From Actinomyces timonensis DSM 23838 (lineage in GTDB: Bacteria > Actinomycetota > Actinomycetes > Actinomycetales > Actinomycetaceae): a stretch of 60,695 bases of DNA. Numbering within the stretch: position 1 is the stretch's first letter; every line of letters begins with the position of its first letter. The DNA lies in contig NZ_JH806632.1 in NCBI RefSeq assembly GCF_000295095.1, forward strand, positions 130,941 through 191,635, in the 5' to 3' direction. Shown here piece after piece: positions 3,689 through 56,098 of the stretch. The translations under genes and the position numbers were made by a program. Below the pieces are notes generated by a model. It did not search any database, was not told the DNA's origin, and was given only the letters and a program-made list of their open reading frames with translations.

Positions 3689-3763
3689 GGCGCCCGCCGG
3701 CCCCGCGCGGGTTCACCAGGCCCGCTTCCCCGCGCCCTCCGGCCTGTCCCCGGTGCGCCGGGG

Positions 3764-6700
3764 TCAGTCCCAGATCCACAGCCGCGTGGCCCGCACCCGG
3801 CCCGCGGTCCCGTCCAGCCCGCGCGCGGCGGTGAGCGCCCCGAGCCCTTCGGTCCCCTGAACCAGGTGGAGGCGGCAGGGTCCCACGGTGGTCCGCCACG
3901 CCGTCGCCAGGGCCTCGGCGCCCTCGCGGGAGCGGCCCAGGGCGGTGGGCAGGGGCAGGGCGAGCTCGCCGGCGCGCAGGGGCTGGAGAAGGTGCTCCAA
4001 TGCGGCGGCCGCGGCCCGGTGCCGCAGGCCCGGGCGGGTCCTGAGCGTGCGCCGGTAGGCGATCCTCGCCAGGCGCCAGCGCAGGCCGTGGGCGCCCGTG
4101 GCAGCGGTCATGAGCGAGATGGCGGTGCCGACCAGGACGAAGCGGGGCCTGCGCTCCATGGGGGCCAGGAGGTCGGCGAGCGCGCCCATGGCGGTCTCGG
4201 CCTGCGCGGTCCAGGCCGGATCCGCCCCGTGATCGGGCGGCGCGCAGGAGACCAGCACGTTGCCAGAGGCGTCGCGCCAGGCCTCGAGGCGATCGGCGCC
4301 GAGCTCCGCGCCCACGCGTCCCGTGGCCCGCAGCGAGGCCAGGACGCAGCCCGCGACGCTCGTCCAGAACTCGGGGGCCTGCCCGGCGATGATGCCGTCC
4401 AAGGCGCTGATGCGCACGGCGGGCCGCGCCCCGTGGTGGGTGGTGTGGGTGGAGTGGGTGCTGGAGCTCCCCGCGCCACTCGGGCCGACCAGTCCCGTGC
4501 TGGTGATGGCATCGATATGCCAGGCGTCGCGCTCGGCGGAGCGGTCCCCGAGGGTGGCCAGGGTGATCGCGTTGAGGCGGGCGATGAGGGCCTCGTCGAC
4601 GGCGCTCGCCTGCCCGGAGGCCCCCAGCCCGAGGATGCCCATTTGCTCCTCCTCCAGGACGGCCGGGGCCCCGGTGGTCAGCAGCGCGCCGCCCGCGGGT
4701 CCCCTGGGCCCAGCCTGACCGACGGCCTCGGGCGCGAGGGCGGATCGCGGCACCGCCCAGAGGTGGGCGTGGCGGCGCTCGAAGCGGTCGAGGTCCGCGC
4801 GGGCGCGCAGGCCGTCGTCGCCGGGCAGGAGGCAGACGACGGACCAGTTGTGCGAGACCTTCCCCTCCCAGCCCGGGTCGATCCTGATGGTCCGCCCGCG
4901 CAGTTGCTGGACGGCGGCCGAGGTGGTGACGGTGGTGAGGTCCACGAGGGTGTTGACGGCGGGGCAGTCCCAGCCCTCCCCCAGCAGCCCGCGCGTTCCC
5001 ACGATGATCCGGATGTCCCCCGCGGCGATGAGCTCGCTGATGGCCAGCACGACCTCGGCGCTGCGGGCGCCCCCGCCAGTGACGCTCAGCGTCCAGCCGT
5101 CGTCGATCGCGGGCAGCTCCAGGCCGGTGCGCTCGCGCAGGGCGTCGAGGATGGCGCCGTCATCGCGGGCCACGGCCAGGCGGGAGGCGGTCAGCAGGAC
5201 CGGGTGGAGGGCGCGCAGGGCGCCGTCGCTCAGGATCGTGGAGAAGCAGCGGGTGGCGCCTCCGGCCGCCCCGGGCCGGTCGGCGCCGATGAGGACGTCG
5301 AGGGCCCGGTGGGGCGCGGAGCGCTCGGCGGCGTCGGTGACGACGACGGCGCGCAGGCGCTCCCCCAGGGCGTCGAGCTCGTGGCGCAGGATGTCGATGA
5401 CGGCGGTGTCCTTGGCGCGCGAGGCCGCCGTCATGACGTCGAGGGGCGAGCGCCCGGCCCGGATGCCCGAGTCGGTGAGGCTGATGCCGAATCCTCGCAG
5501 TCCCTCGCGGGCGTCGTCCCAGTCGGCGCGCCTGGCGGGGTCGGGCAGGAGGCGGTCGAGGGCGTAGCGGGCGAGCAGGGAGAGCTCCTCCTCGGTGTCG
5601 GGGCTCGCCAGGCTCGGCAGCAGGGGCGTCACGAGGGTGCTCAGCGGCGTGGGAGTGTAGCGGTCGGCACGCGACAGGAGCGCTGAGGCGGTGGCGGCCT
5701 GGTCGGGGTCGGCGTCGAATCCGGCCGCCAGCGCGGCCAGGAGCCGGGGGTCATCGGCGGCCAGTGGCTGGGGCCCGCCGTCGCCCGGGTCCCCGCTGCC
5801 CTGGGCCGGAGCGAAAGCGTCGGGGCTGATCCCCGGCGCGACGAGGCCGAGGAGGTAGTCGATGCCGTCGGGGGCGAGGAGGTACTGGCCGATGCGGTGG
5901 GAGAGCTCGGCGCCGGCGGTGGACAGGAAGGAGCGCTCCTCGGGGGTCGGCAGCGTGAACCAGGCCAGCGGCCGGTAGGGGGCGAGGTGTCCGGAGCGCA
6001 CGACGGCGGGGATGGGGACGGCGGCGTCGACGTCCCCCAGGAGCGCGTGGTAGCGGTCCCAGGCGGGGTCCTCGCGACTGGGCTCGGTGGCGGTCAGCCC
6101 GATGAGGGTGGGGCGGGCGCCGACGGCGCGCAGGCGCCGCAGCAGGTAGTGGACGACGAGGGCCCAGTGGGCGCGCAGGTGGTGGCACTCGTCGACGATG
6201 ATCGTGGCGATCCCGGCGGCGACGAGGGCGTCGAGGCGCTTGCGGGCGCCGGCGCCGAGGAGGGCGGCGATGGCGTCGTCGTCGAGCTCGTCGACGCGGG
6301 AGCGGATCGTGGAGGCGCGCGAGGCGATCCCGCGCTTGTAGGCGGCGGGGTTGTCGCGGGCGAGGGCGTCGAGCCAGTCGGTGGCGCGCTCGCGGGCGCG
6401 CCCGTCGCGCATGAGGTCGGTGGTCCAGCGCTCGCGGGCGGCCTCCTCCCAGGGCCCGTCGGTCTCGACGACGGACAGGGCCTGGTAGGTCAGGGCGGTG
6501 AGGTCAGCCGGGGCCCGGCCCTCGGTGGGGGCCCCGTCGGCGGTGCTGGGCGCCCCGCCGTCCGGCAGGGAGAAGAACTCGGCGGCCTGCTGGATCCATT
6601 GGGCGCGGATGACTGTTGTGGGGGCCAGGACGAGGGCCCGGCGCCCGTTGCGCGCGGCCAGGCCGAAGCCGATGACGGTCTTGCCAGCCCCGGGTGGGGC

Positions 6701-6820
6701 GACGATGTGGAGGGTGGCGCCGTCGTCGGGTCGCGCGGAGCGCAGGATGTCGGTCTGGTAGTCGCGGAACGGCGCCCGCTGGCTCCAGGAGGCCAGCGGG
6801 CGCGCCTGAGCCCCCGTCAT
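3764..6820 (-). CDS. Large superfamily 2 DEAD/DEAH helicase-like protein
   Basis: Predicted 1018-aa ATP-dependent nucleic-acid helicase or translocase. The N-terminal half has a YQ motif at residues 21-22, Walker A PPGAGKT at 42-48, motif Ia VLAPTT near 64-69, the DEAD-box variant DECHH at 210-214, and GLTATE at 241-246. The second RecA-like lobe shows GTRGLLGEGWDCP near 608-620 and motif VI QLRGRTIRID at 639-648. About 140 residues (roughly 347-490) separate the two lobes, and the C-terminal 370 residues carry no domain I recognise. It resembles the ResIII/SNF2-like helicases found in defence systems and repair, but no nuclease or methyltransferase gene lies beside it. It starts six bases after the proS stop, so it is probably co-transcribed with proS. 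Confidence 0.8.
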   Translation of the reverse strand: MTGAQARPLASWSQRAPFRDYQTDILRSARPDDGATLHIVAPPGAGKTVIGFGLAARNGRRALVLAPTTVIRAQWIQQAAEFFSLPDGGAPSTADGAPTEGRAPADLTALTYQALSVVETDGPWEEAARERWTTDLMRDGRARERATDWLDALARDNPAAYKRGIASRASTIRSRVDELDDDAIAALLGAGARKRLDALVAAGIATIIVDECHHLRAHWALVVHYLLRRLRAVGARPTLIGLTATEPSREDPAWDRYHALLGDVDAAVPIPAVVRSGHLAPYRPLAWFTLPTPEERSFLSTAGAELSHRIGQYLLAPDGIDYLLGLVAPGISPDAFAPAQGSGDPGDGGPQPLAADDPRLLAALAAGFDADPDQAATASALLSRADRYTPTPLSTLVTPLLPSLASPDTEEELSLLARYALDRLLPDPARRADWDDAREGLRGFGISLTDSGIRAGRSPLDVMTAASRAKDTAVIDILRHELDALGERLRAVVVTDAAERSAPHRALDVLIGADRPGAAGGATRCFSTILSDGALRALHPVLLTASRLAVARDDGAILDALRERTGLELPAIDDGWTLSVTGGGARSAEVVLAISELIAAGDIRIIVGTRGLLGEGWDCPAVNTLVDLTTVTTSAAVQQLRGRTIRIDPGWEGKVSHNWSVVCLLPGDDGLRARADLDRFERRHAHLWAVPRSALAPEAVGQAGPRGPAGGALLTTGAPAVLEEEQMGILGLGASGQASAVDEALIARLNAITLATLGDRSAERDAWHIDAITSTGLVGPSGAGSSSTHSTHTTHHGARPAVRISALDGIIAGQAPEFWTSVAGCVLASLRATGRVGAELGADRLEAWRDASGNVLVSCAPPDHGADPAWTAQAETAMGALADLLAPMERRPRFVLVGTAISLMTAATGAHGLRWRLARIAYRRTLRTRPGLRHRAAAAALEHLLQPLRAGELALPLPTALGRSREGAEALATAWRTTVGPCRLHLVQGTEGLGALTAARGLDGTAGRVRATRLWIWD

Positions 6821-21860: not shown

Positions 21861-21882
21861 GCCCAGCCGCCCCGACCCGAGC

Positions 21883-21923
21883 AAGGGGCCTGGATCCATG
21901 ATGCTCATGGATCCAGGCCCCTT
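21883..21923. terminator. Strong hairpin terminator after the symporter operon
   Basis: A perfect 19-bp stem (21883-21901 with 21905-21923) with loop TGC; the arm reads AAGGGGCCTGGATCCATGA. It begins 22 bases after the stop at 21860. No U-run follows, as is common for high-G+C terminators. It separates the transporter genes from the catabolic genes. Confidence 0.8.
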
Positions 21924-22010
21924 CATCATCGCTCTTCGTCCCCTACTCGTCGGGCTCGCACGGATGCTCCGGGCATCGCGGCGGCGCGCCAATGCCGCCA
22001 GGGCGCGGCG

Positions 22011-22045
22011 CGGGGTGTGACAAAGCAGGGCGTTGTCACACCCCG
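22011..22045. promoter_or_regulatory. 35-bp palindromic operator before the catabolic operon
   Basis: Perfect 13-bp inverted repeat: CGGGGTGTGACAA (22011-22023), nine-base spacer, and its exact complement at 22033-22045. It lies 124 bases upstream of the kinase start and 87 bases after the preceding hairpin. The gap 21861-22169 otherwise holds only that hairpin and a possible -10 around 22090 (GATAGCGT). The DeoR-type regulator at 26131-26820 is the natural candidate to bind it, by inference. Confidence 0.6.
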
Positions 22046-22169
22046 GGCTGCGACTCCTCCTGAGGATCTTCCTCTGATGGCGGGCCCGCGGATAGCGTCG
22101 GAGGCGCCACCGGGCCGCAGCGTCGCTGCCCGGAATCACGGAGCCAACGGAGTCCCCGGGAGGAACGCC

Positions 22170-23492
22170 ATGACACGCATCCCTGATCACCCGCTCGTCA
22201 TCGCTGTCGACTCATCCACCACATCCTCGAAGGCGATCATCGTTGACGCCACGGGCCGGGTCCTGGCCCAGGGCAAGCACGAGATCGAGCTCCACTCGCC
22301 CCGATCCGGCTGGTACGAGCACAACCCCGCGGACTGGTGGGAGAGCACCGAGGCCTCCATCGCCGACGCCGTCGGCCAGCTCGACGACGAGCAGCGCGCG
22401 GCCATCACCGCCATGGCGATCACCCACCAGCGGGAGTCCTTCGCGCCCTTCACCGAGGACGGCCAGGCGCTGCGCCCCGGGATCCTGTGGCTCGACGGGC
22501 GCGCCTCGAAGCAGATCCTCGCCTACGGCAGCGACGAGATCCACGCGCTGTCCGGCAAGCCCGCCGACATCACGCCCGGCCTGTACAAGATGGCCTGGGT
22601 CAAGGAGAACGAGCCCGAGGCCCTCACCAACGCCCACAAGGTGTCCGACGTGCACGGCTACCTCGTGTGGAACCTGACCGGCCGCTGGTGCACCTCGGTG
22701 GCCTGCGCCGACAGCCTCGGGCTGTTCGACATCTCCCGCCTGACATGGTCCGACACCCTGCTCGACATCGCCGGCGTCACCCGCGAGCAGATGAACGACC
22801 TCGTCAACCCGGGCGAGTTCATCGCGAACGTGAAGCCCGAGATCCGCGAGCGCTGGGGGCTGGAGCAGGGCCTGCCCGTCATCGCCGGCTGCGGCGACGG
22901 GCAGGCCGCCGGCATCGGCGCGGGCGTCGTCGAGCCCGGCTGCGGGGGCCTGCTCACGCTGCCGTACTGGCAGGCGGTCCAGTCCCCCTACTGGGACCCC
23001 ATCGCGCGCGGCGCCTTCATCGGCTGGCGGGGCTCGCACGACCGGGCGGCGATGTACCGCTCGATCCTGGAGGGCCTGAGCATCGAGATGGCGCGCGACA
23101 TCGACGCGATGCAGGCCTCGACAGGAGTGCCGGTCACGCGGATCGGGGCGATGGGCGGCGGCACGCGCAGCCCGCTATGGCGCCAGATCATGACCGACGC
23201 GACGGGCCGGCCGATCACCGCCTGCGCCGAGGACGAGATCGCGGCGCTGGGCGCGGCGATCATCGCCATGGCCTCCACGGGCGCCCATGGGGACACGACG
23301 ATCCCGACGGCCGCCAAGGCGATGGCTCGCTTCGGCGACACCACCGAGCCCGACCCCGCGACGCATGAGCGCTACAGCGAGGCCGCGGCGATCCAGGGCG
23401 AGATCTACCGGGCCATCAAACCGGTCGTCGACCGCATCGACGCCTTCGCGGAGAAGTACCCGATGGCGGCGCCCGCGGGAGCCGACGCCTGA
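22170..23492 (+). CDS. FGGY-family carbohydrate kinase with an internal deletion
   Basis: 440-aa member of the FGGY sugar/polyol kinase family. The phosphate-binding start VIAVDSSTTSSKAIIVD, HQRESFAPF, LWLDGRAS and GCGDGQAAGIGAGV are intact, as is the C-terminal adenosine motif GAMGGGTRSPLW. However, GAGVVEPGC runs straight into GGLLTLPYWQAV near residues 250-262. Relatives have roughly 60-80 more residues there, including the second phosphate motif. The reading frame is preserved, yet ATP handling should be impaired. The ATG at 22170 has GGGAGG six bases upstream. It heads the operon kinase, GpsA-like, zinc dehydrogenase, aldolase, DeoR. The substrate is unknown. Confidence 0.8.
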   Translation: MTRIPDHPLVIAVDSSTTSSKAIIVDATGRVLAQGKHEIELHSPRSGWYEHNPADWWESTEASIADAVGQLDDEQRAAITAMAITHQRESFAPFTEDGQALRPGILWLDGRASKQILAYGSDEIHALSGKPADITPGLYKMAWVKENEPEALTNAHKVSDVHGYLVWNLTGRWCTSVACADSLGLFDISRLTWSDTLLDIAGVTREQMNDLVNPGEFIANVKPEIRERWGLEQGLPVIAGCGDGQAAGIGAGVVEPGCGGLLTLPYWQAVQSPYWDPIARGAFIGWRGSHDRAAMYRSILEGLSIEMARDIDAMQASTGVPVTRIGAMGGGTRSPLWRQIMTDATGRPITACAEDEIAALGAAIIAMASTGAHGDTTIPTAAKAMARFGDTTEPDPATHERYSEAAAIQGEIYRAIKPVVDRIDAFAEKYPMAAPAGADA

Positions 23493-23544
23493 CGCCGGGG
23501 CGGCGCGCCACAGTCCGCAGTCCAGGCGACGAAGGAGAAGAGCA

Positions 23545-24519
23545 ATGAGCACGATCACCGTTCTGGGAGCGGGCGCGATGGGCTCGGCCCTGTGCACGCC
23601 CGTCGCGCGGGCGGGCTGGGATGTCCGGCTATGGGGCACCTGGCTCGACGACCACCTCCTGGACGCCCTGGAGGCGGGCAGGCCGCACCCCGCACGAATG
23701 CCCCACTGCCGAGCAGTGTGGCCCTCTTCCGCTCCGATGACCTCGAGGAGGCCCTCGACGGCGCCGACGTCGTCGTCATGGCGGTCGCGTCGGTCGGCGT
23801 CCCGAGGGTGACCGAGATGGCCCTCGATGGGATCACAAGGGCCCAGGCCCTGTGGCTGACGAGCAAGGGATTTTGCCCCGACGCCGAGGGGCGCGTCCAG
23901 CTCCTCCCCGACGCCATCCGCCGGATCGCGGGCGATCGCGGGCTGCCCCCGATCGTCGCGATCGCCGGTCCGGTCAAGGCCAACGAGTGCGGCGTCGAGG
24001 AGCCCACCGCCACGATCTTCGGCTGCCGGGACCTGTCCGTGGCGCAGGAGTATGCCCGCCAGGCCCGCACGGACCGCTACGCCATCGCGCTCGGCGTGGC
24101 CGACGGCCTGGAGGAGAGGACGGGCGTGCCCCACCACAACCTCAAGGCCGCCGCATTCGCGCGCGGTCGAGGAGATGTCCCTGCTCGGCCGAACCCTGGG
24201 AGCCCGGCCCGAGACGGCCTTCGGCCTGGCCGGCGTCGGCGACCTCGAGGTGACCGGGCTGTCCGGCCGCAACAAGGTCTACGGCACGCGCCTCGGCCGG
24301 GGCGAGGGCGCGGCCCAGGCCCTTGAGGAGATGACCCGCCTCGAGCAGACCGTCGAGGGCGTGCCCGCCGTCGCGCTGGCGACGAGGCTCGTCGAGCAGT
24401 CCGCCCCTCAGCTCGTGGGCGAGTTGCGCTTGCTCGCGGCCGTCGCCCGGCTCGTCGCCGGCGGTGTCGACGACCCGCAGGAGCTCCTCATCCCCGCGGT
24501 CCTCCCCGCGCGGCCGTGA
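23545..24519 (+). pseudogene. GpsA-like NAD(P)-dependent dehydrogenase, broken by two indels and a deletion
   Basis: The gene starts at ATG 23545 with STITVLGAGAMGSALC (Rossmann GxGxxG). The frame shifts after GRPHP, at a run of four C at 23688-23691 that probably lost one C. It continues as RTNAPLPSSVALF in the third frame to NLKAAAFAR near 24160. A CG-repeat there (about 24158-24165) seems to have lost one CG, which returns it to the first frame as EEMSLLGRTLGARPET. In addition TDRYAIALGVADG joins segments that in GpsA proteins are separated by about 20 residues containing the catalytic ALKN lysine. The ending GVGDLEVTGLSGRNK is normal for the family. The role was probably oxidation or reduction of a polyol phosphate. 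Confidence 0.8.
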
Positions 24520-24532
24520 TCGGGGCGCGGTG

Positions 24533-25420
24533 ATGAGCCAGATGATGGATGCGGCCGTCATGCACGGCCCCGACGACATCCGCTTCGAGAGCGTCCCGCG
24601 GCCGGCGTGCCCGCCGGGCGGCTTCGTCGTGCGGGTCGACGCCGTCGGCCTGTGCGGCTCCGACATCCGCAACCTGACGACGGACTCGAGCAAGGGCGCC
24701 TACCCCCACATCTACGGCCACGAGGTGGTCGGCGAGGTGGTCGAGGCCGATCCGTCGGTCAGCGCGTGCGCGGTGGGCCAGGAGCTCTACATCTACCCGG
24801 TCGCCCATTGCCTGCGCTGCGAGCAGTGCCGCTCGGGCCACCACGAGCAGTGCACCGAGGTCGAGGAGTACACCGAGCGCCCCGGTGGCTTCGCCCAGTA
24901 CATCTCCTACACCGCCACGCGCGCCGGGCGCGGGGCATTCTTCGCGCTCCCCGACGGCGTCGGCCCGGTCCTCGCCACGCTGGCCGAGCCGCTGTCCTCG
25001 ACCTACGCGTGCGTGGAGAACATCGATGTCCGCATGGGCGATACCGTCGCGATCCTCGGCGCGGGGCCCGTGGGCGTCATGCTGGCGGTCCTCAGCCGGA
25101 TGCGCGGGGCGGACAGGGTGATCCTCATCGACATCAACGCCGAGCGCCTGGAGAAGTCCCTCGCCTTCGACATCGACCACCGGATCGACTCCAGCCGGGA
25201 CGACGCCGTCCAGGCCGTCCTCGATCTCACCGATGGGCGCGGGGCCGACAGCACGCAGGTGGAGAGGGCCTTCGAGCTGGCGATATCGCCGCGCTTCCCC
25301 ACGCGGCAGTTCCTCACCCACGTGCTGCCGCTGTCCGAGATCAACGAGGCCATCCGGCTGCCCCGCACGGGCGAGGCGCTCAAGGTCGCCCTCCTGCCCC
25401 AGCAGCGGCCTGCCGCATGA
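24533..25420 (+). CDS. Zinc-dependent alcohol dehydrogenase (MDR), internally deleted
   Basis: 295-aa medium-chain dehydrogenase, against about 345 in the family. Catalytic-zinc residues (GLCGSDI, GHEVVGEV), the four structural cysteines (CLRCEQCRSGHHEQC) and the NAD-binding GAGPVGVML are present. After LTDGRGADS the sequence jumps to TQVERAFELAISPRFPTRQF. The second half of the nucleotide-binding domain (about 50 residues) is missing, in frame. The C-terminal LPLSEINEAIRL is normal. ATG 24533 follows the GpsA-like stop by 13 bases. It was probably a polyol dehydrogenase. Confidence 0.8.
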   Translation: MSQMMDAAVMHGPDDIRFESVPRPACPPGGFVVRVDAVGLCGSDIRNLTTDSSKGAYPHIYGHEVVGEVVEADPSVSACAVGQELYIYPVAHCLRCEQCRSGHHEQCTEVEEYTERPGGFAQYISYTATRAGRGAFFALPDGVGPVLATLAEPLSSTYACVENIDVRMGDTVAILGAGPVGVMLAVLSRMRGADRVILIDINAERLEKSLAFDIDHRIDSSRDDAVQAVLDLTDGRGADSTQVERAFELAISPRFPTRQFLTHVLPLSEINEAIRLPRTGEALKVALLPQQRPAA

Positions 25421-25450
25421 GACCCGACCACACCACTGAGGAGCACCACC

Positions 25451-26089
25451 ATGATCCTCCACGACGAGCGCGCCAGCGTTGTGCGCGCGTGCCAGGAGAT
25501 GCAGCGGCTGGGACTCGTCGTCGGCACGGCGGGAAACGCCTCGACGCGAGTCGGCGACCTCGTCGTCATCTCTCCCTCCGGCGTCGCCTATGAGGAGCTC
25601 AAGCCGGGGATGATCGGCGTCCACGATCTTCAGGGGGCGCCCGTGGACGCGCCCCTCAAGCCGTCGAGCGAGCTGCCCCTCCACCTCGCCATCTACAACG
25701 GCACCCAGGCGCGAGCGGTCACGCACAACCACGCCCCCGCCTCGACGGCGATGGGCCTCGTGCGCGACACGGTCCCGACCTCCCACTACTACTCCGCCTT
25801 GTTCGGCGGAGTAGTGAGGGTCGCCCCGTACGCGCCTTTCGGAACCCAGCGGCTCGCGGACAATGTGCTCGCGGCGCTGGAGGACCGGCTCGGCGCGCTC
25901 ATGCGCAACCACGGGGCCGTGACGATAGGCCCGAGCCTGGACAAGGCATTGTCCTTGCTGCCCTATCTCGAAAACATTTGCGATTCCCACCTGCGCGCGA
26001 TGGCGAGCGGCGCCCCCGTGGCGCTGCTGAGTCAGGCGCAGGTCACCGACGCCGTCGAGGCGCTCAAGGGCTACGGCCAGGGCCACTAG
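25451..26089 (+). CDS. Class II aldolase/adducin family protein
   Basis: 212-aa zinc-dependent aldolase or epimerase of the FucA/AraD family, which cleaves or rearranges phosphorylated sugars. It has GTAGNASTRVGDLVVISPSG, the catalytic Glu in SSELPLH, zinc ligands in THNHAPAS and NHGAVTIG, and the expected length. It is the only enzyme of this operon that appears complete. A strong hairpin lies within the coding sequence at 25788-25815. The start at 25451 is ATG, with GAGGAG upstream at 25439-25444. In this context it probably splits the phosphorylated product of the operon's kinase and dehydrogenases. Confidence 0.85.
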   Translation: MILHDERASVVRACQEMQRLGLVVGTAGNASTRVGDLVVISPSGVAYEELKPGMIGVHDLQGAPVDAPLKPSSELPLHLAIYNGTQARAVTHNHAPASTAMGLVRDTVPTSHYYSALFGGVVRVAPYAPFGTQRLADNVLAALEDRLGALMRNHGAVTIGPSLDKALSLLPYLENICDSHLRAMASGAPVALLSQAQVTDAVEALKGYGQGH

Positions 26090-26130
26090 GGCAGGGGCCG
26101 GGGCCCACCGGCAGCGCCGTCAGGAGGGAC

Positions 26131-26820
26131 ATGGCAACCGCGATGACGCGGGCGCAGCGGTTGGCGACGATCGCTGACTCCGTGATGGAGGCCGGCGCGC
26201 TCACCGTCCACGAGCTCGCCGATCGCTTCCGCGTCTCACGGATGACCATCTACCGCGATCTCGCCGAGCTCGAGGCCGCGGGCAGCGTCTGGCTGGAGCA
26301 GGGCAAGGCGACCGCGCGCAGGTCCTCCTTCACCGAGACCTCGAGCGACTTCCGCGCCACACTGCGCCAGGCGCTCAAGCAGTCGCTGTGCGAGGCGCTG
26401 CGCCCGATCCTCCGCCGCGGCCAGACGATCATGCTCGACGACTCCTCGACGGTGCGCCCGCTCATCGCCATGCTCGGGGGCGCCGGGCCCATCACGCTCA
26501 TCACGCATTCCCAGACGGTGGCGCTCGAGGCCCGCCAGCACCCGGAGCTGCGGCTCATCCTGGCCGGGGGCGCCTACAACCGGGCGCTGGACTCGTACTA
26601 CGGGCTGACGACGCTGTCGGTGCTGCGCTCGCTGCGGGCGGACCTGTGCGTGATGTCGACGGCGGCGCTCCAGCGCGGTGTCCTCTACCACCCGTTGGAG
26701 GAGGGGGCGGCGGTCAAGGCCACGATGCTCGAGCAGTCCGAGAGACGGGTCCTGTTGGTGGATCACGCGAGGTTCGGCCATCACGCGACGCATGTCGTCG
26801 CGCGCGCCGGCGGGAAATAA
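26131..26820 (+). CDS. DeoR-family transcriptional regulator, slightly short
   Basis: 229-aa regulator with an N-terminal DeoR winged helix-turn-helix (LTVHELADRFRVSRMTIYRDL, residues 28-48 approximately) and a sugar-phosphate sensor domain (LDDSSTVRPLIAML, ITHSQTVALEA, LAGGAYNRALDSYYG). The C-terminus ends abruptly after DHARFGHHATHVVARAGGK; DeoR proteins usually continue 20-40 residues. The stop is TAA, unusual for this window. AGGAGGG lies four bases before the ATG. It probably represses the operon through the palindrome at 22011-22045. Confidence 0.85.
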   Translation: MATAMTRAQRLATIADSVMEAGALTVHELADRFRVSRMTIYRDLAELEAAGSVWLEQGKATARRSSFTETSSDFRATLRQALKQSLCEALRPILRRGQTIMLDDSSTVRPLIAMLGGAGPITLITHSQTVALEARQHPELRLILAGGAYNRALDSYYGLTTLSVLRSLRADLCVMSTAALQRGVLYHPLEEGAAVKATMLEQSERRVLLVDHARFGHHATHVVARAGGK

Positions 26821-26822
26821 CG

Positions 26823-26855
26823 GGCCCCGCCGCTCCGATGCGGAGCGGCGGGGCC
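26823..26855. terminator. Bidirectional terminator between deoR and tsf
   Basis: Perfect 15-bp stem (26823-26837 with 26841-26855, arm GGCCCCGCCGCTCCG) and loop ATG. It starts two bases after the DeoR-type stop and ends 19 bases before the tsf stop, so it can serve both convergent genes. Confidence 0.85.
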
Positions 26856-26874
26856 GGTTGCCGCGGGCGCGCGA

Positions 26875-47793: not shown

Positions 47794-47878
47794 GGCCTGG
47801 GCGGACCGAAGATCCGGCTCAGGGAGTCAGGCCCCAAACGCTCGACGGTCGGCACACTCAGCGTGGACAGGGGCGCGA

Positions 47879-47998
47879 TGTCAATTCTGCTGCCGTCGAG
47901 CGGTCCCCCCAGGATGGCGGAGATGACGATCGTTGGAACCCCAACGCTTCCTCCTGCGATCTCTCCGCACCCATTCCTCGACGGCAGCAGAATTGACA
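47879..47998. repeat. Long inverted repeat (22-bp perfect arms) between operons
   Basis: Arms 47879-47900 and 47977-47998 are exact reverse complements; the left arm begins TGTCAATTCTGCTGCC. They enclose 76 bases that contain a small hairpin CGTTGG-AACC-CCAACG (47931-47946). The left arm's inner end can instead pair with CGCTCGACGG at 47839-47848. The gap 47794-48105 holds no gene. It may be a terminator, a conformational switch, or a 120-bp non-autonomous element; no flanking duplication was seen. Confidence 0.7.
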
Positions 47999-48087
47999 GG
48001 CCTGCCTCCGCACACAGCAGTGGCCAGCGCCAGCCCCTGGCTGAGCCTCAGCCCGGAGGCCTCTACTCCACCACGCCCACCCTGAAG

Positions 48088-48105
48088 TGCATGTAAAATG
48101 CATGC
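48088..48105 (+). promoter_or_regulatory. Promoter and operator of toxin-antitoxin pair 2
   Basis: TGCAT-GTAAA-ATGCA (48088-48102) is an inverted repeat that covers TAAAAT (48094-48099), a good -10 ending six bases before the antitoxin ATG. Transcription would then start at or near the ATG and give a leaderless mRNA; no ribosome binding site is present. The antitoxin probably represses here. Confidence 0.6.
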
Positions 48106-48384
48106 ATGGTTGCTCTTCAGATCCGCAATGTCCCCGACGACGTCCGCGACGCGCTCGCCGAGCGGGCGAGGAGCCGCGGGGAGTCGCTGCAGGCCTACCT
48201 CCTCGAGATGGTGACCCGGGAGGCGGGTTGGAATCGCAACGTTGAGATCCTTGAGAGGATCTCCAGGCGTCTCACGGACTCACAGCAGCCGTCCCCGAGC
48301 ACGGAGGACATCCTTGAGAGCATCGACCTCGCGCGCCAAGAGCGCGATGCCCGGCTGCTCCAGCAGTCGGGGGAACAGGCATGA
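48106..48384 (+). CDS. FitA-like ribbon-helix-helix antitoxin
   Basis: 92-aa antitoxin. VALQIRNVPDDVRDALAERA is a FitA/VapB-type N-terminal ribbon-helix-helix, followed by the HTH-like SRGESLQAYLLEMV and an acidic C-terminus with Ser/Asp residues. Its stop overlaps the toxin start (ATGA). A second ATG four bases upstream (48102) is out of frame. Confidence 0.85.
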   Translation: MVALQIRNVPDDVRDALAERARSRGESLQAYLLEMVTREAGWNRNVEILERISRRLTDSQQPSPSTEDILESIDLARQERDARLLQQSGEQA

Positions 48385-48779
48385 TCGTCGTCGATTGCTC
48401 AGCGCTTGTGCATGCGCTCGCCCACCTCGGTGACGCGGGTAGAGATGCGCGTAGCCGCCTCACTGATGACCCGCATTGGATCGCTCCCGACATCCTGACC
48501 CTCGAGGTCGTCTCTTCCCTGCGAGGCCAAGCGCTCGGACGCAAACTCACTGAGGAGACCGCGTTGAGCGCGCTGGCCGAGTTCAGGGCGATGGACATCA
48601 GCACCTATCCCACCCGCCCCCTCATCGGCCGGATCTGGGAGCTGCGGGACAACCTGAGCGTCTACGACGCCGCTTACGTGGCCCTCGCGGAGGCGGAGGA
48701 CTGCGCCCTGGTCACCCGCGACGCGCGCATCGCCAAGGCCCCGGGAACCCGGTGCCGGATCGAGGTCCTCGGCGCCTGA
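48381..48779 (+). CDS. VapC-type PIN-domain toxin
   Basis: 132-aa predicted ribonuclease. The acidic residues are Asp5 (MIVVDCSALVHAL), Glu in LTLEVVSSLRG, Asp in VYDAAYVALAE, and Asp in LVTRDARI. The layout is the same as the pair at 8798-9435, but the two toxins are different enough to be separate acquisitions. It is convergent with ffh. Confidence 0.87.
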   Translation: MIVVDCSALVHALAHLGDAGRDARSRLTDDPHWIAPDILTLEVVSSLRGQALGRKLTEETALSALAEFRAMDISTYPTRPLIGRIWELRDNLSVYDAAYVALAEAEDCALVTRDARIAKAPGTRCRIEVLGA

Positions 48780-48795
48780 GACCCGGGCCCCACCG

Positions 48796-48866
48796 TCGAG
48801 TTCGTCGCTTTGATGCCGAGTTCGTACCATTACCCGTCGAAGTCGGCGTCAAAGGTACGAACTCGA
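48796..48866. terminator. Bidirectional terminator with two alternative stems
   Basis: 24-base arms (48796-48819 and 48843-48866) pair at 21 positions. An alternative perfect 11-bp stem joins GAGTTCGTACC (48818-48828) to 48854-48864. It lies between convergent vapC and ffh and can serve both. Confidence 0.7.
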
Positions 48867-48885
48867 TGACCGCAAGGAGCGCGGT

Positions 48886-50748: not shown

Positions 50749-51618
50749 TCACTCCCAGGTGACGGACTGCGGGTCCACCCCCTGGGCGAGAGCGGAGGCG
50801 TCGATGATCTCCTTGAGCCAGGCGGCCAGGCCCTTCTCCTTGGCGTCGTAGTAGTCGGTGAAGCGCTGGTCGGCGACGTAGCCGCGGGCGATGAGCACCT
50901 GCTTGGGCACGGTCACCTCGAACCAGCGGTTCAAGTCCGCCCTGTGGCGCTCGGCCAGCGCGTTGGCCTCCTCGCTTCCGGGGGCAACGCCGCGGCGCAG
51001 GGCATCGGCGAGATCGGTCTCCAACTGCTCTGTCTCGGCGGCCGCCCGCTGCCAGTCCCGGGGCGTCATGGCGGCCTTGCGGCGCTCGGACTCGGCCCAG
51101 TCGTCGGTATCGCCCCAGCGCTCCTCGGCCTCGGCCGCGTACTCCTCTGTCCACTGGCCGCCCCAGGCCTCGGCCCGCTCGGCCCCGCTCATGTGGTTGC
51201 CCATGGTCTCTGCCTCCATCATGGTGTCGATGACGCGGACCATCCGCGTCAGGCGAGAGACCCTCTCGGTCAACAGGCGCCGCTGCTGCACCAGGTGCTC
51301 GATCGCCGTCGTCGGGGCGGCGTCGAGCAGCTCGCCGATCGCGGACAGGCTCATACCGGTCTCGCGGTAGACGAAAATCTGCTGGGCGCGGTCGATGTCG
51401 GCGTCGCTGTAGAGGCGGTAGCCGGACCAGCTGCGCCCCGAGGGGGTGAGCAGGCCGATCGCGTCCCAGTGATGGAGCGCGCGCACGCTCACGCCCAGCA
51501 GCCGCGCGGCGGCGCCGACCGTGCGGTCGCTCTCTCGCGCGGGGGCCTCGGCAGGGGCGGGGGCCGGTGCCGGGGCGCTGGGGTGGGGCGCGTCGTTCAT
51601 GCCCTGAGGATCTCTCAT
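50749..51618 (-). CDS. MerR-family regulator with a TipAS-like domain
   Basis: 289-aa regulator. An N-terminal MerR helix-turn-helix (VGAAARLLGVSVRALHHWDAIGLL, residues about 34-57, and SGYRLYSDADIDRAQ) is followed by a coiled dimerisation helix and a C-terminal TipAS-type helical domain (WFEVTVPKQVLIARGYVADQRF). TipAS domains bind thiopeptides and other drugs. A Pro/Ala lead of about 30 residues precedes the HTH. I chose the ATG at 51618 because a MerR-type promoter would place the transcript start there; ATG 51600 is an alternative. Confidence 0.9.
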   Translation of the reverse strand: MRDPQGMNDAPHPSAPAPAPAPAEAPARESDRTVGAAARLLGVSVRALHHWDAIGLLTPSGRSWSGYRLYSDADIDRAQQIFVYRETGMSLSAIGELLDAAPTTAIEHLVQQRRLLTERVSRLTRMVRVIDTMMEAETMGNHMSGAERAEAWGGQWTEEYAAEAEERWGDTDDWAESERRKAAMTPRDWQRAAAETEQLETDLADALRRGVAPGSEEANALAERHRADLNRWFEVTVPKQVLIARGYVADQRFTDYYDAKEKGLAAWLKEIIDASALAQGVDPQSVTWE

Positions 51619-51625
51619 GCGACGC

Positions 51626-51656
51626 AGCCTGTCGCCTCACGCCGCGTGAGGGTCAA
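51626..51656 (-). promoter_or_regulatory. MerR-type autoregulated promoter
   Basis: On the minus strand TTGACC (51656-51651) and CAGGCT (51631-51626) are separated by 19 bases. Within the spacer and -35 edge lies the perfect dyad CCTCACGC-G-GCGTGAGG (51635-51651). A 19-bp spacer with a central dyad is the hallmark of MerR-regulated promoters. Transcription would begin about at the ATG (51618), giving a leaderless mRNA. Confidence 0.65.
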
Positions 51657-51762
51657 GGATGCGGCCGAGTCCGGGCCCTGTCCCTCCGATCCCCGCCCGG
51701 GCCCGGACCTCACCAGGACTTCGCCGGCCCCCTGCTGACCACAAGAGACAAAATGGCGCAGG

Positions 51763-52029
51763 TCAGAAAATTCCAGTGAAGTCGAGCAAGAATAGCGACA
51801 CCATTAGAAAGACGGCCGCCACGGCCGCAACGGCAATCAATCTCCAGCCAAGGGCCTTCTGACCGGAAGACGATTTGCCGGCCAATGAGCGGGACAGAAA
51901 TTCCGCTTCCAGGATTAGAATCAGAAACGCGGCCCCCCAAGCCCACCAGGGAATACCTCGACTGAACATCGATGCAACCCCAAGAATACAGGCCACAATA
52001 AGAAAATTATTGCCACGACTGACGCGCAT
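51763..52029 (-). CDS. Small three-helix membrane protein (possible immunity protein)
   Basis: 88-aa protein with three predicted helices: NNFLIVACILGVASMF, IPWWAWGAAFLILILEAEF, and LIAVAAVAAVFLMVSLFLL. It starts at ATG 52027-52029, 33 bases after the stop of the candidate secreted peptide gene, with GGGGGA upstream. The base composition is richer in A+T than the backbone. I recognise no family. Small membrane proteins in this position often protect the producer of a membrane-active peptide, so immunity is a reasonable guess but unsupported by homology. Confidence 0.6.
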   Translation of the reverse strand: MRVSRGNNFLIVACILGVASMFSRGIPWWAWGAAFLILILEAEFLSRSLAGKSSSGQKALGWRLIAVAAVAAVFLMVSLFLLDFTGIF

Positions 52030-52062
52030 TAACACATTCCCCCGTGAAGCCAATATCAATCG

Positions 52063-52617
52063 TCAGCAGGAAATCGCAGTGACCAGCGCACCGCCAGCAG
52101 CTTCGCAAGCAGCGGCCGTAGCAGCGCCAGCGATCGGAGTGGCAACACCGCTCGCGCCCGCCGATGCTGGAAGACACACAAGCCCTCCCCAGGCGATATT
52201 GAAAGCCCAACCAATCCATTTCGGCATGCAGTACCCTTGAGGAAGATCAGGCGAAACGAACGATGCTCCCTCTTCTCGAATCATCTGAGTAGATTCATCG
52301 AAGTAGAATGTCATTCCGGAATCTGGAGAAGTTATGTCAATCCTCGCTACAATCAGTCCGGCCGAGTCGGTCCACGTGACAGCATCACCTTCAATTGAGA
52401 TTTCATCCCCTTCAACCATATTCAATTTAAGACCTTGCCCCTGCACGGGAACTGCGGAACGCTGAGCACCGGTCCGAGGATCTACTGCAACTTGATCCTG
52501 AGACGCAAGAACCTACTGATCTCTTTCTCGGACTACCGCACCTGCGGGAGCACCGATCGATGCGCACAGCACAGTGGCGGCAATCACGAGCATGATCGAC
52601 TTCACTGTCGTTTTCAT
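52063..52617 (-). CDS. Candidate secreted cysteine-containing peptide precursor with an internal amber codon
   Basis: A 184-codon frame from ATG 52615-52617. Residues 1-27 are a signal peptide (MKTTVKSIMLVIAATVLCAS, likely cleavage after PAGA). Codon 35 (52513-52515) is TAG, after VRERDQ. The frame continues without a stop for 149 further codons: a hydrophilic pro-region and a C-terminal segment beginning YCMPKWIGWAFNIAWGG with Cys130, 148, 171 and 184 (the last residue) and many Gly/Ala. AAGGGAG is upstream. The design (signal, pro-region, hydrophobic Trp/Gly/Cys peptide) resembles a secreted bacteriocin, but I recognise no family. The amber codon may be a nonsense mutation, a read-through site or a sequencing error. 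A separate start at GTG 52446 would lack the signal. Confidence 0.55.
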
Positions 52618-52697
52618 AATGCACTCATCTCCCTTAGTGGCGCGCGCATACATGGCTTGAAGATCAAGCGCCCTTGATCCGATCCCCAAGCGGCAAA

Positions 52698-52727
52698 ATC
52701 GTAATACTGCTGGTCAAAGGATGTCAA
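52698..52727 (-). promoter_or_regulatory. Near-consensus promoter of the candidate peptide gene
   Basis: On the minus strand TTGACA (52727-52722), an 18-base spacer, and TACGAT (52703-52698). This is the closest match to a housekeeping sigma-70-type promoter noticed in the window. A start near 52691 gives a leader of about 70 bases to ATG 52617. Confidence 0.65.
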
Positions 52728-52771
52728 GAGGTCGACTGGACTCATCTTGGACGCCCGCACAGAACTGCGCC

Positions 52772-52995
52772 TCACATGAATACGCGCTCGGCGTCGATGG
52801 ACTCGGCCTTGCACAGATCGTTGACCGTCTCGGTCATCGCTTTGTCGTAGCTGTATCCACGGCCCCAACCGGGGCGCGGGGATAGCGGGAAACGCCCAGC
52901 CAACGATCCGGCGGGTGAAGACATCGGCGATGAATACAGTGCGACAGAACCCGGTCCGCGCGCAGGAAGGGGCAGCCTCCCACTCGCGGAGTTGA
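52772..52995 (-). mobile_element. Deleted remnant of an IS3-family transposase (OrfB)
   Basis: One frame reads WEAAPSCARTGFCRTVFIAD followed by VFTRRIVGWAF, which matches the integrase-core start of IS3-type OrfB. A second frame, about 25 codons later, reads GYSYDKAMTETVNDLCKAES, the segment with the catalytic Glu near the end of OrfB. The roughly 60-100 residues normally between them, including the second catalytic Asp, are missing. No terminal repeats were found. The remnant lies between the response regulator gene and the candidate peptide promoter. The gap 52618-53025 holds this remnant, that promoter, and nothing else recognised. Confidence 0.75.
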
Positions 52996-53025
52996 GGGCC
53001 TCGGAGCCGGCCGCTCGGCCGTCTT

Positions 53026-53793
53026 TCACGCGGTGGCCCGCAACCAGGCGAGGACGGCGCGCACGCGCCGGTTCTCCTCCTCGGGCGGCAGATCGAGCTT
53101 GGCGAGGATATGCGCCACGTGCTTGGCCACCGCACCGTCGGAGACCACGAGCCGGGCGGCAATCTGGCTGTTGGACAGGCCCTCAGCCATGAGGGCCAGG
53201 ACCTCCCGCTCGCGCTCCGTCAGGCGGTCGACGGCGCCCTCCGGCGCGGGCCCGGTGCTCCCCGCAGTGCCCCGGGCCGTTCCCGCTGGCGACGACGGCG
53301 CGGGGCCAGCCCCGCCAGCACTCGCCGCCGCCCCACTGGCAGGGGCCGCCGTCGTGCGGGCGAGGAGGCCGGCCACGACCTCCGGATCCACGACCACTCC
53401 CCCGCTGACGACGACCTGGAGGGAGCGCATGAAGTCCTCAACGCGCCCCACCCGCTCCTTGAGGAGGTAGCCGACCCCGCCGGACTCCTCGGCGAGGAGG
53501 TCGCGCACGTACTCGCCAGCCGTGTAGGCGGACAGGACGACGACGGGCAGCCCCGGGTGGGCCCCGCGCAGGGCGACGGCGGCCTTGAGCCCGTCGTCGG
53601 CATTGCCCGGGGGCATGCGCACATCGGTGATGACGGCGTCGGGAAGCTCGCCGCGCGAGGCCAGGGACTCGACGGCGTCCAGGAGCCCGGGCGCGTCATC
53701 GGCCTGGGCGACGACCTCGTGCCCGGCGTCGGCCAGGAGCGCGGCCAGTCCCTCGCGCAGGAGGGCGGCGTCGTCGGCCAGAACGATCCTCAT
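53026..53793 (-). CDS. NarL/FixJ-type response regulator
   Basis: 255-aa regulator. Receiver: MRIVLADDAALLREG, phosphorylation Asp57 in ITDVRMPPG. An Ala/Pro/Gly linker of about 40 residues separates it from the LuxR-type DNA-binding domain (LTEREREVLALMAEGLSNSQ, then LVVSDGAVAKHVAHILAKL). ATG 53791-53793 starts the receiver directly; an upstream in-frame extension is not conserved-looking. It is the likely partner of the kinase at 53869, on the same strand and downstream. Confidence 0.93.
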   Translation of the reverse strand: MRIVLADDAALLREGLAALLADAGHEVVAQADDAPGLLDAVESLASRGELPDAVITDVRMPPGNADDGLKAAVALRGAHPGLPVVVLSAYTAGEYVRDLLAEESGGVGYLLKERVGRVEDFMRSLQVVVSGGVVVDPEVVAGLLARTTAAPASGAAASAGGAGPAPSSPAGTARGTAGSTGPAPEGAVDRLTEREREVLALMAEGLSNSQIAARLVVSDGAVAKHVAHILAKLDLPPEEENRRVRAVLAWLRATA

Positions 53794-53868
53794 AGGGGTG
53801 ATTGTGCACGAAAGGCCCGCGGCGCTCACCGGGGCCCCGCCGCCGGGCCTCCGGATGTCCCGTCCGCC

Positions 53869-55107
53869 TCACCAGGGAGGCGCGGCCGGGGCGCTCAAGT
53901 GGAGGGTCGTGCCCCGTCCGGGCGGGGAGTCGATGACCAGCTCGCCGCCGACGGTCGCCATCCGCTGGGCGATGCCCGCCAGGCCCGTGCTGCCGCTGCC
54001 GGCCTCCTCGATGCGGGCGCCGCCGACGCCGTCGTCCTCGACGCTGGCCTCCACGCCCGCGGCGGAGCAGACCATCGCGACTCGCGCGCGCCCGACTCCG
54101 GCGTGGCGGGCGACGTTCGTCAGGGCCTCGCTGATCGCGAAGTAGACGGCGGTGGCCACGGGCGGCGTGATCGCCGAGTCGTCCCCGCTGATCGACACCC
54201 CCGGCTCCAGGCTGGAGCCCGCGCACAGCTCGCGGACGGCGGCGGCCAGGCCCCGGTCGGTGAGCACGGCGGGGCGCACGGCGCGCACGGTCGCCCGCAG
54301 CGAGGCGAGGGCGGCCTCGGACTGCTCCTGCGCGCGGTCCACGCGGGTGAGGATAGCGTCGCGCGCTCCCTCGTCCTCCAGGCGGGCGGCGGCGAGCCGC
54401 ACCGAGCCGAGGGTCATGGCCAGGGCGCTCAGGTGCTGCTGGGCGCCGTCGTGCAGGTCGCGCTCGATGCGGCTGCGCTCGGCCTCGAAGGCGTCCACGA
54501 GCGTGGCCCGCCCTCGCGTGAGATCTCCGACCTGCGCGTCGAGCTCCTTGGCTCTCTCGGCGACGGCGTCGCGGCCAAGGATCTCTGTGACCACGAGGCG
54601 CAGCCGGCCGATGCCCGCGAGGACCGCCAGGCAGATCGCGGCAAGGAGGAGGCTCGCGGGGATCGCCCACCAGGCGTCGATCGGGCGGGTGGCCGTCCCC
54701 ACCCCGAAGCCCACGGGGTGCTCCTCGGAGACGATCCACGGGACGCCGGCCGCGATGACGACGAGGACTCCCCCGATGACCGTCACGAACATGGAGGCCA
54801 GGCCGAGGACGAGGGAGGCGGCGGCCAGCGGGAGGTCCTGGCGCCAGAAGGCCGCGGTGACGATCCGTGAGGAGCACCAGCGCGTCACCGGCTCGCCGTC
54901 CTCGCGGCCGGAGGGGGCGCTGGCGCCGAGGCGGCGGGCGGCCCAGCGCTCGGCCTCGGCCAGGGCTGGGATCGTCAGGTGCGCCAGGAAGAACCCGATG
55001 GACACGATCATGAGGACCGGCAGCCATGCGACGGCATGGACGAGCTCGGCGAGCACGATCATCGGCCAGCGGCGCCCCGGGGCGCTCGGGCGTGTCCTCG
55101 TCATCAT
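53869..55107 (-). CDS. Sensor histidine kinase (HisKA_3 type)
   Basis: 412-aa kinase with an N-terminal sensor of about four to six helices (LAELVHAVAWLPVLMIVSIG, LAAASLVLGLASMFVTVIGG and others) and two Cys/Trp-rich loops. The phosphoacceptor is His219 in RIERDLHDGAQQHLSA. The HATPase domain has EALTNVARHAGVGRARV and EDDGVGGARI. The start is one of two adjacent ATGs (55105-55107). It precedes the regulator gene at 53026 and diverges from the ABC/FtsX exporter at 55259, which it probably controls. Confidence 0.93.
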   Translation of the reverse strand: MMTRTRPSAPGRRWPMIVLAELVHAVAWLPVLMIVSIGFFLAHLTIPALAEAERWAARRLGASAPSGREDGEPVTRWCSSRIVTAAFWRQDLPLAAASLVLGLASMFVTVIGGVLVVIAAGVPWIVSEEHPVGFGVGTATRPIDAWWAIPASLLLAAICLAVLAGIGRLRLVVTEILGRDAVAERAKELDAQVGDLTRGRATLVDAFEAERSRIERDLHDGAQQHLSALAMTLGSVRLAAARLEDEGARDAILTRVDRAQEQSEAALASLRATVRAVRPAVLTDRGLAAAVRELCAGSSLEPGVSISGDDSAITPPVATAVYFAISEALTNVARHAGVGRARVAMVCSAAGVEASVEDDGVGGARIEEAGSGSTGLAGIAQRMATVGGELVIDSPPGRGTTLHLSAPAAPPW

Positions 55108-55138
55108 GGCCCGGACGCTACCCGCGCGCTTGCCCGCA

Positions 55139-55228
55139 GTCATTGGCGCCAGCACCACCCTTGCGCATCCACCTGGCTCCACCAGGGGTGGGGACAGGAG
55201 CGCGAGTTGGGGCCTGGGCGCCAATGAC
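55139..55228. promoter_or_regulatory. Paired operator in the divergent gap of exporter 2
   Basis: GTCATTGGCGCC at 55139-55150 and its exact reverse complement at 55217-55228, 66 bases apart, lie between the divergent kinase and ATPase starts (gap 55108-55258). Each contains the palindrome GGCGCC. They are good candidates for response-regulator binding at two divergent promoters. Confidence 0.6.
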
Positions 55229-55258
55229 CCTGGCGCTTGCCTGGGCTGCAATCGAGGC

Positions 55259-56098
55259 ATGAAACCTCTCCATCGCTCGCCCCGCCGCGGCCCCGCCGAC
55301 GGCGCCCCTGCTCCGACCGTCCCCGCCTCGCCCACGCAGCCGCCCTCGGCGATCTCGGTGCGCGCCCTCAGGCGCGACTACGAGGTCCCGGGGCGCGCCT
55401 CAGCCGCCATCCGAGCCCTGGCCGGGGTGGACCTCGACCTTCCGGCATCGTCCTTCAGCGCGATCGTCGGGGCCTCGGGCTGCGGCAAGTCGACGCTCCT
55501 GCACATCATCGCGGGCCTGGACCGCCCCACATCCGGCAGCGTCGCCCTGCTGGGGACGGCGACGACGTCGCTGCGCCCCAGCGCGCTCGCCGCGTTCCGG
55601 GCGGCGCACGTGGGAGTGGTCTTCCAGGAGGACAACCTCGTCTCCTCCCTGTCCGCCAAGGACAATGTGGCGCTGCCGGGGCGCCTGCGCCACCGCCCGC
55701 TGCCGCGCGGCGCGGCTCGGGCGGCCCTGGAGCGCGTCGGGCTCGGCGCCCAGGCGGGCTCCCTGCCCGAGCGCCTCAGCGGCGGTGAGCGCCAGCGGGT
55801 GGCGATCGCCCGGGTCCTCGCCTCCCGGCCCGCCATCGTCCTGGCCGATGAGCCGACGGCCGCGCTCGACGTCGTCTCGGCGCGGGTCGTCCTGGACTGG
55901 TTCGCCCAGATCGCCGCCGAGGGCGCCTGCGTCCTCATGGTCACGCACGATCCCGCCGCGGCCGCACGTGCCCAACGGGTCGTCGTCATGGACGGCGGGC
56001 ACGTCGTCGAGATGGTTCCCGGGGGCGATGCGGCGGCGGTCTCGCAGGCGCTCCTGCGCGCCCGGGACGCTGGGGCCGGTGAGGGGAGGGCCGCCTGA
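55259..56098 (+). CDS. ABC transporter ATP-binding protein (exporter 2, MacB/LolD-like)
   Basis: 279-aa ATPase. Walker A VGASGCGKSTLLHIIAGLDR, Q-loop VVFQEDNLV, signature LSGGERQRVAIARVL, Walker B IVLADEPTAALD and switch MVTHDPA are all intact. It belongs to the group that pairs with FtsX-like permeases. A Ser/Pro/Arg-rich lead of about 35 residues precedes the domain. ATG 55259; no good ribosome binding site, so it may be leaderless. It overlaps the permease by one base (TGATG). Confidence 0.94.
   Translation: MKPLHRSPRRGPADGAPAPTVPASPTQPPSAISVRALRRDYEVPGRASAAIRALAGVDLDLPASSFSAIVGASGCGKSTLLHIIAGLDRPTSGSVALLGTATTSLRPSALAAFRAAHVGVVFQEDNLVSSLSAKDNVALPGRLRHRPLPRGAARAALERVGLGAQAGSLPERLSGGERQRVAIARVLASRPAIVLADEPTAALDVVSARVVLDWFAQIAAEGACVLMVTHDPAAAARAQRVVVMDGGHVVEMVPGGDAAAVSQALLRARDAGAGEGRAA

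Follow-up and report, generated by a model that had tools for sequence, protein, structure and literature searches.

The interrupted gene at 52063..52617 of the window, together with the small membrane protein gene that directly follows it, is likely to represent an undescribed family of bacteriocins with four cysteines, secreted through Sec, matured by a protease and accompanied by immunity proteins; the antimicrobial activity is what we infer from this arrangement. The window is the whole stretch of DNA that we analysed, 60,695 nucleotides of Actinomyces timonensis DSM 23838 (contig NZ_JH806632.1, positions 130,941 to 191,635), and the genome that carries it is 2.93 Mb in 4 contigs.

The precursor gene and its setting

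The precursor gene is read on the minus strand, from 52617 to 52063, and consists of 184 codons and a stop codon, with an in-frame TAG at codon 35. The three parts that a preliminary description of this DNA had distinguished were confirmed in the translation: a signal peptide of approximately codons 1-27 (delimited by eye) with a basic start, a hydrophobic core and an AGA end, then a hydrophilic pro-region, and finally a C-terminal peptide with four cysteines at approximately codons 129-184. The positions that had been given for these cysteines, codons 130, 148, 171 and 184, were likewise recovered by translation, the codon numbering being fixed on an equally long intact orthologue from A. denticolens, and another cysteine lies within the signal peptide. 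The predicted mature peptide would comprise about 56 residues (52066..52233, minus strand), counted from a presumed N-terminus. Computed on the intact orthologue, whose residues across this region are identical to those of the window, it is hydrophobic, with a net charge of 0 and a cysteine spacing of 17-22-12.

The preliminary description had also proposed looking in relatives for the same frame without the amber codon, and this is what A. denticolens DSM 20671 carries (locus L004), with three coding differences from the window besides the TAG. On the sequence evidence the precursor frame is more than chance, because it is kept in other species with the four cysteines invariant. The homologues in related genomes have signal-type N-termini, and the absence of such homologues, which had been named in advance as a reason for giving up the interpretation, was therefore not what we found. 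Since the precursor is interrupted in the window genome, the strain probably produces no peptide; the TAG is known from a single assembly, where it may reflect an error of sequencing. A single-sequence structure model of the intact orthologue (mean pLDDT 43, below 50 in the C-terminal part) presented weak beta strands in the pro-region and is unreliable in the C-terminal part.

The gene had been described as lying in an island richer in A+T, and the row from 52001 to 53000 does have the lowest G+C content of all 1-kb rows of the window, 56.2%, the remaining rows ranging from 59.2% to 77.9%. Immediately upstream of the two genes, at 52772..53029 on the minus strand, there is a probable remnant of an IS3-type transposase. 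It has weak similarity to two IS3-like places in the same genome, 41% over 66 residues at the first (E 3.2e-4) and 39% over 67 residues at the second (E 0.011), with a stop inside in both cases. The second place adjoins a frame that we judged by eye to be IS3-like, and this frame matches a transposase at another locus, which is an integrase core by Pfam. The remnant itself matched nothing in Pfam at E <= 1. The adjacent transposase remnant of the preliminary description is thus upheld by the similarity to IS3-like places and finds no backing in Pfam; we regard it as probable, on a likeness that is plausible and weak. Among the 26 loci searched, IS3-type transposases lie less than 2 kb from two more copies of the gene pair (in G415 and G486).

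A candidate sigma-70-like promoter, TTGACA-18-TACGAT, is placed upstream of the precursor at 52698..52727 on the minus strand by its match to the consensus alone; 3 such sites were found in the region against 0.5 expected. Further upstream, the segment 53026-57453 encodes a response regulator and a histidine kinase (53026-55335) and then, both assigned by eye, an ABC-transporter-like ATPase and a permease. On the downstream side the gene pair is adjoined by a MerR regulator with a TipAS antibiotic-recognition domain (50749-51618, minus strand).

Comparison with the corresponding A. denticolens contig gave 153 aligned windows of 300 bp with a median identity of 91.0%. Six consecutive ones, which together cover 51301..53100, are nearly identical (98.7-100%), and outside this tract only two windows reach 98%. 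Given a 1.8-kb tract of such identity against a median of 91%, the two genes and their flanks were probably exchanged recently between the window species and A. denticolens. The low G+C and this tract, at least 98.7% identical to A. denticolens, both agree with the earlier suggestion that the DNA was gained. The MerR/TipAS gene lies partly within the tract. Elsewhere in the window, two small frames judged by eye to be VapB-like and PIN-domain-like (48106-48779) may be a gained toxin-antitoxin pair, because the alignment to A. denticolens has a gap there (47795-48875). The stretches 3703-6780 and 21874-26874, to which nothing in the aligned A. denticolens contig corresponds, are probable insertions or gene-content differences.

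The partner gene and the two-gene cassette

The candidate immunity gene (51763..52059, minus strand) starts three bases past the stop codon of the precursor and is intact. Its product, of 98 aa if translation starts at a TTG or 88 aa if it starts at an internal ATG, contains two to three hydrophobic segments and the motif GIPWWAW; the gene has three coding differences from its A. denticolens counterpart. A terminator-like hairpin at 51812-51836 was set aside because it falls within this coding frame. Small membrane proteins directly downstream were found for 21 of the 27 precursors of the family under a strict rule (same strand, start between -90 and +120 bases from the stop, 55-150 aa and at least two hydrophobic segments) compared with 29 of 843 control frames, a contrast flattered by the composition of the controls, which took in every frame at these loci that is open over at least 150 codons, the non-coding ones and the cassettes themselves included. 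In the other six (L020, L073, L074, L118, L120 and L122), the precursor is followed by a short hydrophobic frame below the cut-off, which was accepted by eye. Because a small membrane gene is the usual companion of such precursors elsewhere, the precursor and the membrane protein of the window constitute a two-gene cassette.

The partners align with each other within Actinomyces and two further genera; beyond the alignable set they have little in common except size and topology. Besides the two cassette genes, no genes were seen at a fixed position beside the cassette across genera, and neither a modification enzyme nor a protease was observed to recur beside it. Frames resembling ABC transporters are shared by 9 loci from 5 genera, those resembling response regulators by 7 loci from 4 genera and those resembling kinases by 2 loci from 2 genera, their positions not being fixed in any of these cases. 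The ABC-transporter-like frame directly upstream in G063 does not resemble an exporter, because it contains two ABC domains but lacks a membrane domain. Partner-like membrane proteins with the motif GLPWYAWIIQFVIL, or one close to it, were also seen at L079, L080 and L081 (in G051, G053 and G052, respectively), with no precursor detected within 10 kb around; each is either an orphaned immunity gene or the partner of a precursor that went unrecognised.

The precursor family in other genomes

Profile searches identified 27 precursor loci in 24 genomes; 12 of these loci were in the profile, so that their own scores are not independent. Using the piece of the precursor after the in-frame stop as query, 13 of the 49 genomes of the genus matched at E <= 0.01 and 7 were kept; the six weak ones (G041, G020, G021, G001, G018 and G028, E 0.0037-0.008) were dropped for lack of recurrence at E <= 1e-4. 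The same query matched 10 of 213 genomes of the taxonomic family at E <= 1e-4, one of which (G124) was dropped because the match falls within a large membrane-protein frame, and in a contig search it returned one locus, that of A. denticolens. In a sample of the order, profile A1, built from five relatives, found matches in 7 of 396 genomes, three of which lie outside the taxonomic family (G415, G486 and G501). With a profile of 12 relatives (A3) the matches at E <= 0.01 rose to 20 of the 213 genomes of the taxonomic family, in 9 of 36 genera, a distribution that is patchy. The same profile matched 2 of 394 genomes in a sample of the class, that of the window and G442, and in a sample of the phylum that of the window alone (1 of 296), so on these samples the family seems to be confined to the order. 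Also dropped, as chance matches, were a second row of G047 and weak additional ones of L020, L028 and L072.

Seven precursors are broken or truncated (those of G000, G008, G009, G027, G091 and G442, and the second of G092) and were left out of the survey of cysteines and spacing, which covers 20 full or nearly full frames. All 20 have exactly four cysteines past the signal region. The spacing between the first and the second cysteine is 17 in five frames and 18 in fifteen, that between the second and the third is 12-22, and that between the third and the fourth 12-17. The C-terminal part comprises 48-63 residues, its mean hydropathy is 0.5-1.1 in 19 frames and 0.1 in one, and several of the mature peptides are not cationic. 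Judged by hydropathy only, 19 of the 20 frames have a signal-type hydrophobic stretch, the exception being G195.

Nothing but the four cysteines and one proline is invariant in 22 aligned C-terminal domains. This domain is nevertheless the better conserved part, with 51-79% identity compared with 31-52% for the whole precursor in the same four pairs. The precursors in alignment A3 are 125-214 residues long, and by eye their pro-regions fall into two kinds, the first having a GD-x-V-x-I pattern and the second, which is shorter, NYPRVS ahead of the first cysteine. Two different precursors occur in each of three genomes, G501 (L073, L074), G092 (L119) and G052 (L120, L121), the second precursor of G092 being N-terminally shortened and less than 2 kb from the first.

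Loss of the precursor and retention of the partner

A search with the partner matched 44 of the 213 genomes, and of these we used those with E <= 1e-10 for a survey of decay, which comprises ten Actinomyces genomes (G000, G006, G008, G009, G013, G017, G027, G032, G037 and G047). The precursor is intact in three of them (G006, G013 and G047) and broken in five: a stop interrupts it in G000 and a frameshift in G027, in G009 the mature part has lost its first half, in G008 only the last two dozen residues are present and in G017 there is a stop-ridden remnant. In the remaining two partner-bearing genomes, G032 and G037, no precursor was detected. The partner is open in six of the ten with the precursor broken or undetected, namely at the five broken loci and in G032, while the partner frame of G037 ends early.

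The dN/dS of the partner was 0.19-0.58 in eight pairs, with synonymous sites near saturation in several of them. In the pairs where both precursors are dead, the values were 0.21 (G027-G008) and 0.38 (G009-G017). These low ratios could also stem from selection that preceded the decay. Survival of the partner after loss of the precursor is the behaviour expected of an immunity gene, and we take it as moderate evidence because the partner is a shorter mutation target than the precursor.

Comparison with known families

Searches of Pfam and NCBIfam with the precursors and partners gave no convincing match to any bacteriocin or immunity protein, which is consistent with the earlier view of a secreted precursor without a recognised family. 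The weak matches in these collections (a T6SS effector model, cytochrome b561, TgpA_N, a WW domain, EP400_N and others) were under the curated cut-offs where shown and were rejected, and matches of the partners at E 0.001-0.012 were ascribed to their hydrophobic helices. Nothing was found in the PDB searched by profile at E <= 10, nor in PADLOC with 9 partners at E <= 0.1, and a match to PHROGs by one of 12 members (E 0.074) was not convincing. Plasmid and phage records presented chance-level matches only (best E 0.9 and 0.09), none of the 34 stretches of IMG/VR that fitted a pattern encodes a relative, and in the open-licence PMC literature no title was found that describes a four-cysteine precursor family. 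The precursor family is without a name in the databases searched.

Halocin C8 resembles the present precursors in layout only, with a signal sequence, a hydrophilic pro-region and a C-terminal hydrophobic peptide that contains cysteines. In halocin C8 the pro-region itself is the immunity protein. A small membrane protein is likewise encoded immediately downstream in two of the four halocin loci fetched; in L127 (1804-2010) and L128 (1799-2005) it is a 68-residue protein after haloarchaeal halocin C8-like genes, a parallel layout without shown homology, and a comparison of the halocin-locus membrane proteins with the actinobacterial partners was negative. The full-length halocins fetched have ten cysteines whereas the present family has four, and their hosts are haloarchaea and not actinobacteria. 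Membership in the halocin C8-like domain family (TIGR04449) was rejected, the best score being 9.3 bits (E 2.2), from one of 12 members, against a cut-off of 24 bits. Kinship was not borne out either, since an hhalign comparison of 22 with 4 sequences gave a probability of 1.9% over 8 columns. The TIGR04449 model had no match in the window's genome at E <= 0.01, and a search of 197 genomes of the class gave one match, barely above the cut-off, in G634, which is not the window's. Proteolysis of HalC8 is reported to free a bioactive C-terminal fragment (PMC12893001), which is the route of maturation proposed here for the present precursors.

Actifensin, a defensin-like bacteriocin of Actinomyces ruminicola, is similar in being a disulfide-bonded Actinomyces bacteriocin with a gene cluster found in some strains only (PMC6989792). 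As given there, it has a 69-residue precursor with a 32-residue leader, six cysteines and an operon with further afn genes, whereas the precursors described here have 125-214 residues and four cysteines and belong to units of two genes. Assignment to the actifensin or bacterial defensin class was rejected, given six cysteines in a mature peptide of 37 residues in the one case and four in 48-63 residues in the other.

Proposed function and alternative explanations

The features of a Sec-dependent bacteriocin class that are present in the family are the signal-type stretch (19 of 20 frames) and the adjacent small membrane protein (21 of 27 by rule and six by eye). In the mechanism that we propose, the precursor would be exported through Sec and its predicted signal peptide removed, and a protease encoded outside the cassette would then cut off the hydrophilic pro-region extracellularly. 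The released peptide, about 48-63 residues long and mostly hydrophobic, would be held by two presumed disulfides among the four invariant cysteines, and it would probably insert into the membrane of competing related bacteria. The partner, of about 70-135 residues, would sit in the membrane of the producer and protect it, a role as immunity protein that is suggested by its position, topology, divergence and persistence. Because the precursor is interrupted and the partner open, the window strain would probably be an immune non-producer. The preliminary description had interpreted the locus as a secreted precursor in gained DNA, and both elements stand; it did not include the immunity-like gene next door, how widespread the family is, or the pattern of decay. 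For the wider claim, that the cassette is the founding member of a separate class of bacteriocins in the order of Actinomyces, strongly hydrophobic and locked by disulfides, with pro-regions of the GDxVxI or NYPRVS type, a fast-evolving membrane immunity protein, movement between species and repeated collapse to immunity-only 'cheater' loci, we see the chances as evenly balanced.

A secreted peptide with a pro-region beside a membrane protein would also fit a signal and its membrane partner, and the genes upstream of the cassette in the window include those for a response regulator and a histidine kinase. The peptide could then be a pheromone which the partner senses or processes, with no killing involved. 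We consider this quite improbable, because two-component genes do not regularly accompany the cassette elsewhere among the genera, because the partner is too short and too variable for a sensor kinase, and because it is kept after loss of the precursor, which is not expected for the receiver of a dead signal. Another model is offered by SdpC of Bacillus subtilis, which is Sec-exported with a long pro-region, gives a membrane-active peptide, has a membrane protein for immunity, and needs helper proteins from dedicated maturation genes. Its layout of signal, pro-region and peptide is comparable to that of the present family, and helper genes likewise adjoin precursors; perhaps, then, the precursor is an exported membrane-active protein that hits its own population, for example a lysis or cannibalism factor, and the partner helps in export or maturation and not in immunity. 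However, although NCBIfam includes an Sdp-type model, no Sdp model was among the NCBIfam matches of 12 precursors at E <= 5, and no dedicated maturation genes such as those of SdpC were seen to recur by the present cassette. A partner that is open in six of ten Actinomyces genomes with the precursor broken or undetected is also unexpected for a dedicated helper, and we hold this explanation to be very unlikely.

The immunity interpretation of the family is compatible with a further reading, since the latter is about the strain and not the family: the cassette of the window strain may be a dead remnant of no present consequence, its partner just not yet decayed. The TAG at codon 35 of the precursor is in keeping with this. 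The interruption must also be young, given how closely the tract in the window resembles that of A. denticolens, so that an intact partner in the window strain alone says little. Elsewhere in Actinomyces, however, the partner is open beside far more decayed precursors (G008 and G017) and its dN/dS is below 1. A dead remnant is thus possible and, on the whole, unlikely.

Significance

Many Actinomyces and their relatives live in mouths and on animals. If our interpretation of the family as bacteriocins with immunity proteins is true, these bacteria would have an unnamed bacteriocin family of minimal two-gene layout, and the four-cysteine precursor family merits a name. The predictions that follow from the cassette family are clear, because producers and immunity-only strains are recognisable from sequence. 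If the reading as a distinct class is true, then producers, immune non-producers and sensitive strains would be readable directly from genomes. Recurrent disappearance of the peptide where the partner is kept offers a natural test of the change from producer to immune non-producer.
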